Source of the DNA: Steroidobacteraceae bacterium
GTDB lineage: Bacteria > Pseudomonadota > Gammaproteobacteria > Steroidobacterales > Steroidobacteraceae
Reading direction: 5' to 3'
DNA: 64,000 nucleotides
Assembly (NCBI GenBank): GCA_029266835.1
Contig: JAQSWD010000006.1
Location: 1 to 64,000, forward strand
The notes beneath the pieces were generated by a model. That model was not told the DNA's origin. It did not search any database and was given only the letters and a program-made list of their open reading frames with translations. A program made the position numbers and the translations under genes. Shown here one piece after another: positions 44,611 to 64,000 of this stretch (position 1 is its first letter; every line of letters starts with the position of its first letter).

Positions 44611-47600
44611 ATGAACATCGTGGATTTCGCGATACGCCGGCGAGTCACCATCGCCATGGCGACGGTGGCGATCACCCTGCTGGGCATGATTTCGCTGTCC
44701 CGGTTGAAGGTGAACCTGCTTCCGGACCTCTCCTACCCCACCCTCACCATCCGGACCGAACTACCCGGTGCCGCGCCGTCCGAGATCGAGAACCTGATCT
44801 CGCGGCCCATCGAAGAAGCCGCCGGCGTGGTGCGCAATGTTCGCTCGGTCCGCTCGGTGTCGCGGTCCGGCCAGTCCGACGTGATCGTCGAATTCTCCTG
44901 GGGCACCGACATGGATTTCGCCGGCATCGAAGTCCGCGAGCGCATCGACCTGCTCTGGCTGCCGGTGGAGGCCACGCGGCCGCTGTTGCTGCGCTTCGAC
45001 CCGTCCAGCGAGCCCGTCATGCGCGTGGCGTTCGTCGACGAGGCCACCGACGGGGGCCGATCGGCCGCCAGCCACGAGGAGCGGCTCAAATTCCTGCGGC
45101 GTTTCGCCGACGACCGCATCAAGCCCGAGATCGAATCGGTGGAAGGCTCCGCGGCGGTCAAGGTGAGCGGCGGCTTCGAGGACGAGGTGCAGATCTACGT
45201 CGATCAGCAACGTCTCGCGCAGCTCAAACTATCCATCGAACACGTGGCGCGCCGCATCGGCGCCGAGAACGTGAATCTCTCCGGCGGCCGGCTGGAACAG
45301 GGAACGCAGCGTTTCCTGGTGCGCACCGTCAACGAGTTCGAGACGCTCGAAGACATGGCCAACGCGGTCGTCGCCACCGTCGACAACCAGCCCGTGTATC
45401 TGAAGGACGTGGCCCGCGTCGAGAGAGGCTACAAGGATCGCACTGCCATCACGCGCCTGAACGGCGCCGAGTGCATCGAGCTCGCCATCTACAAGGAAGG
45501 CGACGCCAACACCGTGCAGCTGGCCCAGGGCATCGCGCGCAAGCTCGAGTCGTTGCAGAAGTTGCTGCCGGCGGGCACGAAGCTCACGCCGGTCTACGAT
45601 CAATCGCGGTTCATCGCCAGCGCCGTCAGTGACGTGAAGGACGCCGCCATCCTCGGTGGCCTGCTGTCCATCCTGGTGCTGTATTTCTTCCTGCGCGACG
45701 CCTGGGCCACCATCGTCACCGGCATCGTCATCCCGGTCACCGTGGTCGGCATCTTCGTGATGATGTACGCCTTCGATCTCACGCTGAACGTGATGTCGCT
45801 GGGCGGCATCGCGCTCTCGGTGGGCATGTTGATAGACAACTCGGTGGTGATCCTCGAGGCCATTGCCAGGCGCAAGGAGGCCGGCCTGTCCACAATCGAG
45901 GCGGCGCGCGAGGGCACCGCCGAAGTCGCGACCGCCGTCACCGCCTCCACGCTCACGTCCGTGGCCGTGTTCTTCCCGATGGTGTTCGTCAGCGGCATTG
46001 CGGGGCAGTTGTTCCGCGACCAGGCACTCACGGTCACCTTCGCCCAGCTCATCTCTCTGATGGTGGGCATCACGCTGGTGCCCATGCTCACCGCGTGGCG
46101 CGCGCGCCTGGGTGACAAGGAAGAAGCGCCCGCGGACGACGCCGGTGAGCCACGCGAAACGCTGACTTCACTCAAGCGCTATGTCGCCGCGGTGTGGAGC
46201 AACTTCAAGGTCTCCGCCATCGTGCGCGGCCGGGTGCATCCTTCCTGGCCGGTGCGCGCGTTCTGGAAGTTCATCAGCGTGCCGATATTCCTGCTGCGCT
46301 GGGCATGGAGCTACGTGGCGTTCGGATTGCGCTGGACCTTCACCTGGGTAGTGAGAGTGGCCCGCGTCCTGTTCGGCGGCCTCGGCAAGGTTTTCGCGGT
46401 GCTGCTGTCGCCGTTCGTGTGGCTCACGCAGAGGAGCTACGCCTTTCTCGATCGCCACTACCCCGCCTTGCTTTCGTGGGCGCTGGAGCGCCGCGTCGCC
46501 GTGCTCTCGACGGCCGTGGCGCTGCTGGCAGTCACCGTCCTCATACTGCCCAGACTCGGGACTGAACTGATTCCGCAGCTCTCGCAGGGCGAGTTCACCG
46601 TGAAGATGCGCTTGCCCGCGGGCTCGCCGCTCGAGACCACCGATCGCCAGGTGCAGACCATCCACAAGGCCGCGCGCGCGCTGCCAGATCTCGACAGCGC
46701 CTATGGCGTCGCGGGCACCGGCAATCGGCTCGATGCGAACCCGGTCGATTCGGGCGAGAACACCGGCAACCTCGATGTGAAGCTTCGTGGCGTGGACAAA
46801 CAAGGCGAAGAGCGCGCCATGCAGGCCTTGCGCGCCGATCTTGCCGGCATCCCGGGCGCGCAGTACGAGTTCACGCGGCCTTCACTGCTCACGCTGGCGA
46901 CGCCGGTCGAAGTGGTTCTTGCCGGTTACGATCTCGACCGGCTGTCGGTCGCGGCGAACGCCATCCGCGAGCGCATGGAGCTTTCGAAAGCCTTCAAGGA
47001 CATCCGCTCGAGCATCGAGGGCGGCCATCCGGAAATCCAGATCATCTTCGACCAGGAGCGCGCGTCACAGCTCGGGCTGGCCGTGCGCGACGTCGCCGAC
47101 CGCGTGGTGGCCAACGTGCGCGGCAGCGTGGCCACGCGCTACCGCCTCCAGGAAAAGAAGATAGACGTGCTGGTGCGGAGCGTCGACACGCGTGCCGCGT
47201 CCATTGAGGAAGTGCGGAATCTCGTGGTGAACCCCGGCGGCGCCCACCCGGTGACGCTTTCGGCCGTGGCCGACGTTCGCCTGGCGACTGGCCCCGCCGA
47301 GATCCGCCGTGCCAACCAGGAACGTGTCGCCGTGATCTCCGCGGCACCGGCCGACGGCGACCTCGGCGCCGCCACGATCCAGGCCCGGGAAATACTGTCC
47401 CAAACTACCCTGCCCGTGGGCATCCTGGGTTCGGTCTCGGGTCAGAGCGAAGAAATGACCGAAAGCTTCCGCTCACTGGGCCTGGCGTTCGCGCTGGCCG
47501 TGTTCCTGGTCTACCTGGTGATGGCCTCGCAGTTCGAGTCGCTGCTGCATCCCTTCGTCATCCTGTTCACCATCCCCATGGGCCTCATCGGCTCCATCTG

Positions 47601-57180: not shown

Positions 57181-58767
57181 TCATTGTTCCGTTGGCCGCA
57201 CCGATTCGGGGTGCAGCGTGGCGCCGAACCGCGATTTGAGCTCGCGCACCATGGGGTCGTCTTCCAGCGACTTGCGCGCAGCGTCGAGTGCCTCGGCCGA
57301 ACGCCGCTCGCCGGTCTGGCTGGGCGTCTCGACATCGGGCGCGCCTTCCACGAACTCGAGTTTCGCGGGAACGCCGAGATACTTGGTCAGCGCCTGCCCG
57401 AGCTTTTCCACCTGCGCCGCGGATCGCGCCACCTTTGGATCGATGGCCAGGCGCAGCGTGTTGCCGCGGTGTTCGAGCAGCGCGCAGTTGGTCGCCAGCT
57501 GGCGCGCCGCGCCGGTGAGATCGAGGTCGCCGATGACGCGGATCCATTGGACGGGTTCGATCGCGCCGGCCGACGCGGGCCGCACGATGGGGGCACCGCC
57601 GATGGAAGGCGGCGGACTCGCGGCGCCTGAGACCCCCGCCCCGCGCGCCCCGCCACCTGAAGCAGCCCCGGTCACCGCGGCGCCCGCGGGCCGGAAAGCC
57701 AGCATGCGCACCAGCGTCATCTCGAAACCGGTGCGCGGATCGGGCGCATAGCCGATATCGCGGCGACCGAGAATCGCGGTCTGGTAATAGAGCTGCACGT
57801 CTTCGGCCGATATCGCGGCGGCCAACTCCTTCAGCAGCGCAGGATCGTACAGCTCGTCGCCTTCGTATCCATCCACCAGCTGCTGCAATGCCACGCGCGT
57901 GAGCAGCGCAGCCAGGTCGTCGAGCACCTGCGCGTAGTCAGGCGAGAATTCCTCGAGCAGCTTCGACGCGGCCAGCAGTTGCACGGCGTCATTCGTCGCC
58001 AGCGCGCGCGCGATCTTGGTGACGTGGTCTCGGTCGATGGTGCCCAGCATGCCGCGGGCACTCTTCTCGTCCACCTTGCCACCGCCGAATGCGATGAGCT
58101 GATCGGTGAGCGACAGTGCATCGCGCATGCTGCCATCCGCCGCCTGCGCCACCAGGCGCACCGCGGCGGGCTCGTGCGCGATTTTTTCGGCGTCCAGCAC
58201 CTTCACGAGATGCTCGCTGATGAGGCTCACCGGCATACGCTTGAGATTGAACTGCAGGCAGCGCGACAACACCGTGACCGGCAGCTTCTGCGGATCGGTC
58301 GTCGCGAGCAGGAATTTCACGTGTGGCGGCGGTTCTTCGAGCGTCTTCAGCAAGGCGTTGAAAGAATGCGTGGACAGCATGTGCACTTCGTCCACGAGAT
58401 AGACCTTGTACCGGCCGCGCGTCGGCGCGTACTGCACGTTCTCGAGCAGTTCGCGCGTGTCATCCACCTTGGTGCGCGACGCCGCGTCGACTTCGATGAG
58501 ATCGACGAAACGGCCCTCGTCTATCTCCTTGCAGGAAGCGCATTTGCCGCAGGGCGTGGCGGTGACGCCGGTCTCGCAGTTGAGGCACTTCGAGAGGATG
58601 CGCGCGATGGTGGTCTTGCCCACGCCACGCGTGCCGGTGAACAGGAAGGCGTGATGTACCCGGCCCTGGGTGAGCGCGTTGCCCAGTGCAACACGGACGT
58701 GCTCCTGGCCCACCAGTTCGGCGAAAGAACGAGGCCGCCACTTGCGGGCCAGCGCGAGATAACTCAT
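57181..58767 (-). CDS. dnaX: DNA polymerase III subunit gamma/tau
   Basis: LARKWRPRSFAELVGQEHVRVALGNAL, FTGTRGVGKTTIARILSKCLNC, DEVHMLSTHSFNALLKTLEEPP. Confidence 0.97.
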   Translation of the reverse strand: MSYLALARKWRPRSFAELVGQEHVRVALGNALTQGRVHHAFLFTGTRGVGKTTIARILSKCLNCETGVTATPCGKCASCKEIDEGRFVDLIEVDAASRTKVDDTRELLENVQYAPTRGRYKVYLVDEVHMLSTHSFNALLKTLEEPPPHVKFLLATTDPQKLPVTVLSRCLQFNLKRMPVSLISEHLVKVLDAEKIAHEPAAVRLVAQAADGSMRDALSLTDQLIAFGGGKVDEKSARGMLGTIDRDHVTKIARALATNDAVQLLAASKLLEEFSPDYAQVLDDLAALLTRVALQQLVDGYEGDELYDPALLKELAAAISAEDVQLYYQTAILGRRDIGYAPDPRTGFEMTLVRMLAFRPAGAAVTGAASGGGARGAGVSGAASPPPSIGGAPIVRPASAGAIEPVQWIRVIGDLDLTGAARQLATNCALLEHRGNTLRLAIDPKVARSAAQVEKLGQALTKYLGVPAKLEFVEGAPDVETPSQTGERRSAEALDAARKSLEDDPMVRELKSRFGATLHPESVRPTEQ

Positions 58768-58806
58768 GCGTGCGCGATTCCTCGTACGGGTACGGCGAAG
58801 AATTGG

Positions 58807-58908
58807 GAGGCAGCCCGCACCAGCCGGACTTCGGCGCCCGACATCGCCGCTACCGCTGCTCCCTTCCGGGCCTGACGGGGTTTACAACTAGTCGTCGCGA
58901 AGGTCGAA
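58807..58908 (-). ncRNA. ffs: Bacterial small SRP RNA (4.5S); 5' boundary unclear, merges with the truncated tRNA-Ser
   Basis: Minus strand GTCAGGCCCGGAAGGGAGCAGC apical SRP motif; CTTCG/CGAAG and CGAC/GTCG stem pairing; located upstream of dnaX as in related genomes. Confidence 0.8.
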
Positions 58909-58976
58909 CCCTGGAACACCTTTTGGATGTTGCTTGCTTTCCAAGCAAGTGCCTTCGACCGCTCGGCCACCTGTCC
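58904..58976 (-). pseudogene. 3'-truncated tRNA-Ser (anticodon GGA)
   Basis: Minus strand GGACAGGTGGCCGAGCGGTCGAAGGCACTTGCTTGGAAAGCAAGCAACATCCAAAAGGTGTTCCAGGGTTCGA: D-arm, GGA anticodon arm, 6-bp variable arm and T-loop start are present, but no CCCTG T-stem partner, no CCTGTCC acceptor partner and no CCA follow. Confidence 0.75.
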
Positions 58977-59015
58977 TCGGGGGGCGAATGATAACGGAAA
59001 GCCGCCCCCGGGGGC

Positions 59016-62958: not shown

Positions 62959-64000
62959 ATGTCCTTCCGCACCCTCCGCAAAGCACTGGTCGCCCTGCTG
63001 TCATTGTCGCTGGCGCTGCCCTTCCCGGGCCTCGCGCAGTCCAATAGCGCGAATGACCTGCCCGACATCGGGAGTCCGGCCTCCTCCAGCCTGTCGCTAG
63101 ACGACGAGTTCCGCATCGGCTTGCAGGTGGTGCGGCAGTTGCGGGACGAGGGTCAGATACTGGAAGACCCCGAATCCACCGAGTATCTGCAGGCATTGGG
63201 CTCGCGGCTGGTAGCCCAGGCCACGGGCGATTCGGCGCAGCGGTTTTCCTTCTTTTTCGTGCGCGACGACACCATCAACGCCTTCGCACTGCCGGGTGGA
63301 TTCATCGGCGTGAATTACGGGCTCATGCTGGCCACCCGCAACGAGGCCCAGCTCGCCGGAGTGCTGGCGCATGAAATCGCGCACGTCTCGCAGCGGCACA
63401 TCGCGCGACGCGTGCGCTCCCAGGGTCGGCAGAGCATCGCCACCATGGCGGCCATCCTCGCGGCGATTCTCGTGGGCGCGGCCACCGGCTCCAGCGACGC
63501 CGCCATGGGAGGCGTGGCCATGGCCCAGGGAGCGGCCATGCAACAGCAGATCAACTTCACGCGCGCCAACGAGAACGAGGCGGATCGCGTCGGCATGGGG
63601 TTCCTGGCCGCTGCCGGGTTCGACCCCTATGGCATGCCTGACTTCTTCGAAACCATGGGCCGCCGCAGCAGCATCTCCGCCACCAATCGCAATGCGCTGC
63701 CGGAAATCCTGCAATCACATCCCGTCACTACCAACCGCATCGCCGAATCGCGTTCGCGCGCCGCGCAGTTCAAGGATCTGAATCCATCCCCGGAAACCGT
63801 GAGTTACTCGCTGACGCGCGAACGCCTGCGCGTGCTGGCCACTCCCGCCGAAGAAAACGTTCGGCGCTACTACGCCGACCGCCGCCAGCAGCAGCCCATC
63901 CCGGGCGCGGGCGAGCTCTACGGCGAGGCGCTGGCTACCTACCAGGCGGGCAATCCGCGCGCCGCGCTGGATTCCCTGATCGCGCTGGCGCGCGACTATC
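62959..64000 (+). CDS. M48-family periplasmic metalloprotease with C-terminal TPR region (BepA-like), truncated by the window end
   Basis: Signal peptide; LAGVLAHEIAHVSQRHIARR; NENEADRVGMGFLAAAGFDP. Confidence 0.9.
   Translation, partial: MSFRTLRKALVALLSLSLALPFPGLAQSNSANDLPDIGSPASSSLSLDDEFRIGLQVVRQLRDEGQILEDPESTEYLQALGSRLVAQATGDSAQRFSFFFVRDDTINAFALPGGFIGVNYGLMLATRNEAQLAGVLAHEIAHVSQRHIARRVRSQGRQSIATMAAILAAILVGAATGSSDAAMGGVAMAQGAAMQQQINFTRANENEADRVGMGFLAAAGFDPYGMPDFFETMGRRSSISATNRNALPEILQSHPVTTNRIAESRSRAAQFKDLNPSPETVSYSLTRERLRVLATPAEENVRRYYADRRQQQPIPGAGELYGEALATYQAGNPRAALDSLIALARDY

Follow-up and report, generated by a model that had tools for sequence, protein, structure and literature searches.

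On the minus strand of the window, which is the whole 64,000-nt stretch of DNA that we analysed, a tRNA-Ser(GGA) gene (58976-58904) passes directly into an SRP RNA gene at 58903 with no break. This arrangement raises the question of whether the two genes have become one new RNA, whether a deletion has damaged both of them in the organism, or whether the join belongs to the assembly. The window lies on contig C136 of a draft genome (G000) of 4.1 Mb in 221 contigs that is 87% complete. The initial annotation described a tRNA-Ser(GGA) fused to an SRP RNA, the tRNA lacking its 3' end and the SRP RNA most of its 5' strand, and the sequence reads as it described. The most likely source of the fusion, in our view, is a flaw in the assembly or a damaging deletion that happened very recently, and not a new kind of RNA.

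Both RNA genes are incomplete at the junction

The tRNA part consists of the 5' 73 nt of the gene (58904-58976, minus strand) and matches query positions 3-75 of the intact same-genus gene at 97% identity. It shares with type II tRNA-Ser(GGA) the acceptor 5' strand, the D-arm, the GGA anticodon arm and the long variable arm, and it continues through the T-arm 5' strand to the start of the T-loop. However, it lacks the T-arm 3' strand, the acceptor 3' strand and the CCA of a complete tRNA, and ARAGORN called no tRNA at the fused locus. Flanking the anticodon stem, at 58950-58932, the remnant carries A and C in place of the G and T found in the same-genus genomes G001 and G002. The family member L015 carries the same A and C; therefore, these differences are natural variation and not decay.

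The SRP part, an ffs gene of the 4.5S type without its outer 5' arm, spans 58806-58903 on the minus strand, with its 3' limit at approximately 58806. The Rfam model Bacteria_small_SRP (RF00169) matched positions 58818-58910 with 56.8 bits, above the cut-off of 40; the SRP RNAs of G002 and G001 scored higher than the window, at 66.8-67.9 bits. The model aligned end to end over the junction, and the seven bases, GGTTCGA, that it counted at the SRP 5' end are the T-loop region of the tRNA. Compared with the 4.5S RNA of this model, the remnant keeps the conserved core with its GGAA tetraloop and an entire 3' arm but lacks the outer 5' arm. Between the junction and the end of the 3' arm, it is identical to the SRP RNA of the complete genome G002. 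The neighbouring DNA is only approximately 78-80% identical, indicating that the 3' arm was under constraint until now.

Absent at the junction, between bases 58903 and 58904, are the tRNA 3' end with the CCA, the spacer and the SRP RNA 5' arm. The downstream neighbour, dnaX (57181-58767, minus strand, start at 58767), is conserved and intact with 528 aa, and its product is 80-81% identical to those of both same-genus genomes over residues 1-527.

Same-genus relatives carry the missing 47 nt

When the dnaX-ffs-tRNA-Ser loci were compared, the same-genus relatives were found to carry 47 nt that the window lacks. G001 and G002 both contain a whole tRNA-Ser(GGA), a spacer of approximately 10 nt and a whole SRP RNA. 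A 155-nt query from G001 matched the window only at query positions 3-75 (97% identity) and 123-155 (100% identity); since the matches stop at 75 and resume at 123, query positions 76-122, exactly 47 nt, are missing. Alignment to G002, which is complete in a single contig, gave the identical 47-nt gap. The same-genus draft G003 likewise keeps an intact tRNA and an intact SRP 5' arm as far as its contig end. The stretch is intact in all three same-genus genomes compared and lies upstream of dnaX wherever the contig extends far enough.

Among 110 related loci, 54 have an intact tRNA-Ser(GGA) on the same strand at most 400 nt upstream of the SRP core; therefore, tRNA-Ser(GGA)-ffs-dnaX is an ordinary conserved gene order. 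The window shares with this bacterial cluster the order, strand, neighbours and sequence but lacks the 47 nt. Using a search pattern in which the T-loop lies at most 30 nt from the SRP stem, we found that G000 was the only carrier of the fused junction in the 217 genomes of the family and the 397 of the order, and a recurrent fusion in relatives was thus rejected. A literature search for a tRNA-SRP fusion returned nothing relevant.

At another locus, L010, the sequence CGAGTCTCACCCTCTCCG stands a few nucleotides before the SRP RNA and resembles the 3' end of a tRNA-Ser without the 5' part; ARAGORN called no tRNA there.

The composite does not form the SRP hairpin

The SRP RNA of RF00169 is a single long hairpin with a closed lower stem. 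The intact RNAs of the two relatives had minimum free energies of -57.9 and -60.3 kcal/mol, both as the full SRP hairpin, and that of G002 formed one hairpin at -60.3 kcal/mol with a z of -2.67. The predicted minimum free energy fold of the window composite (-49.5 kcal/mol) differed from the SRP hairpin, and the energy was -37.7 kcal/mol with the SRP core forced. Forcing the core thus cost 11.8 kcal/mol in the window, compared with 2.5 kcal/mol in G002 and 3.2 kcal/mol in G001. The long SRP hairpin cannot close in the window because the outer 5' arm is missing. The composite folded no better than shuffled sequence (z 0.37), and an alternative fold of the composite was rejected on the same ground.

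Both RNAs should still be needed

The complete genome G002 has one copy of each serine tRNA, including tRNA-Ser(GGA). The whole serine tRNAs in G000 are those with the anticodons GCU, UGA and CGA only. The initial annotation had raised the matter of another tRNA-Ser able to read UCC and UCU; tRNA-Ser(UGA) could read some of these codons, but the draft contains no whole tRNA-Ser(GGA). The fused locus gave the single SRP RNA match in G000, and an intact second copy was rejected, as there was one SRP match and no other tRNA-Ser(GGA). A pattern for the lost T-arm and acceptor part found only other sites with 3 mismatches in G000.

Across 45 long ORFs of the window, UCC makes up 259 of the 1026 serine codons, and Ffh is present; therefore, both RNAs should still be needed. 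Loss of the functions of tRNA-Ser(GGA) and the SRP RNA should be severe.

Origin of the missing 47 nt

The absence of the 47 nt is observed against the same-genus genomes, in this one draft and with no intact copy elsewhere in its assembly, and we infer that the loss arose in the assembly. We regard a join that dropped the 47 nt as the probable cause. The tRNA and the SRP RNA would most likely be two complete adjacent genes in the cells, as in the same-genus relatives, and the 47 nt separating the T-loop of the tRNA from the lower SRP stem would have been lost in the draft, probably at the joining or gap-closing of contigs that ended inside these RNA genes. A join made at such RNA genes without the 47 nt would give exactly the picture seen.

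Metagenome assembly would tend to fork inside such RNA genes because their sequences are common to several genes and organisms. Contig ends cut two other tRNA genes in G000, namely tRNA-Tyr, cut in the T-arm at the start of C194 (L235), and tRNA-Arg(ACG), cut at the end of C101 (L233). Two contigs of G003 stop inside the conserved SRP core, where they share 26 nt (G003:C20:1-26 and G003:C626:1-26). In addition, the breakpoints shared zero bases at the junction when microhomology was checked with either G001 or G002 as the parent. We counted this result for an assembly fault; it also fails to support the initial annotation's proposal of a possible deletion between GGTTCGA-like copies.

The window contains no N, which we counted against an assembly fault. 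The flanking genes dnaX, ybaB, recR, dapA, gcvR and phoH align to both relatives with neither large gaps nor early ends. With the flanking genes intact and no N present, the assembly is therefore not generally error-prone around the locus, and generally poor base quality was rejected because the neighbouring genes show no sign of it. Normally, a plain de Bruijn assembler joins sequences only where reads span the join. A chimera of two organisms was likewise rejected, since both flanks match the same genus with similar identity and in the same gene order.

G000 also contains a 53-nt 3' fragment of tRNA-Phe(GAA) with the 5' part missing (G000:C52:6435-6487; L231), and no intact tRNA-Phe was found in this draft. 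The surroundings of the fragment differ from those of the tRNA-Phe locus in G002, and it says nothing either way about the same fault.

We give smaller, although appreciable, credence to a real 47-bp deletion that arose very recently in the sampled population and removed the tRNA-Ser(GGA) 3' end and the SRP RNA 5' arm. The carriers might survive poorly, might live by means of another tRNA-Ser that reads UCC and UCU together with a shortened SRP RNA, or might have been a minority favoured by the assembly. The continuous sequence without N, the intact neighbouring genes, the score that the SRP remnant still reaches in Rfam and the presence of tRNA-Ser(UGA), which could decode some codons, are consistent with such a deletion. 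However, it would disable the only tRNA-Ser(GGA), while UCC accounts for a quarter of the serine codons counted in the window, and a second copy of the lost part was not found in G000. It would also take one strand of the lower SRP stem in the distal region bound by FtsY; in 4.5S RNA, this protein uses the distal region as well as the tetraloop (PMC6059433). Moreover, the orphaned SRP 3' arm shows no decay. As this arm is unchanged compared with G002, any real loss would have to be very recent, or it did not take place in cells. We therefore consider that the deletion more likely belongs to the assembly than to the organism. The view that a deletion joined two essential RNA genes holds as a description of the sequence, but the deletion may exist in the assembly alone.

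The tRNA 3' end could also have been lost if a mobile element whose attachment site was tRNA-Ser(GGA) had excised imprecisely, but we consider this highly improbable. In G000, tRNA-Met(CAT) occurs as one whole gene and four copies of the 3' 46-51 nt alone (G000:C56:30124-30200, 46475-46525, 63210-63260 and 76820-76865; G000:C184:16654-16702), as expected if mobile elements had repeatedly integrated at tRNA-Met, and the repeated 3' fragments on C56 suggest integration at tRNA genes in this genome. However, the loss at the fused locus reaches well into the SRP RNA, and no element or attachment remnant was noticed in a cursory look from the upstream genes to dnaX.

Equally improbable, in our view, is a living bacterium with a genuine fused tRNA-Ser/SRP RNA, a shortened SRP RNA and no tRNA-Ser(GGA) that manages with wobble decoding and only a minimal SRP core. 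We give the least credence to a functional composite RNA made of a tRNA-like 5' domain and the SRP RNA, as the initial annotation had suggested: there is no decay in the tRNA 5' part or the SRP core and the Rfam model runs end to end over the junction, but the relatives carry two complete RNAs, only a single draft shows the junction, with no conserved fusion, the predicted structure does not exceed that of shuffled sequence and the SRP core is costly to form compared with intact relatives. The 5' part of such a composite cannot be charged as a tRNA because it has neither a T-arm nor an acceptor stem.

Implications

An assembly join that dropped 47 nt is thus the reading we prefer, and the locus is a caution that two conserved RNA genes can look like a single chimera in a draft assembly. 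Because the SRP remnant still passes the Rfam cut-off, automatic annotation would report an SRP RNA here, whereas the tRNA would just be missing from the list. Should the deletion be real, the organism would be a natural experiment showing to what extent a cell can dispense with the SRP RNA and with tRNA-Ser(GGA).
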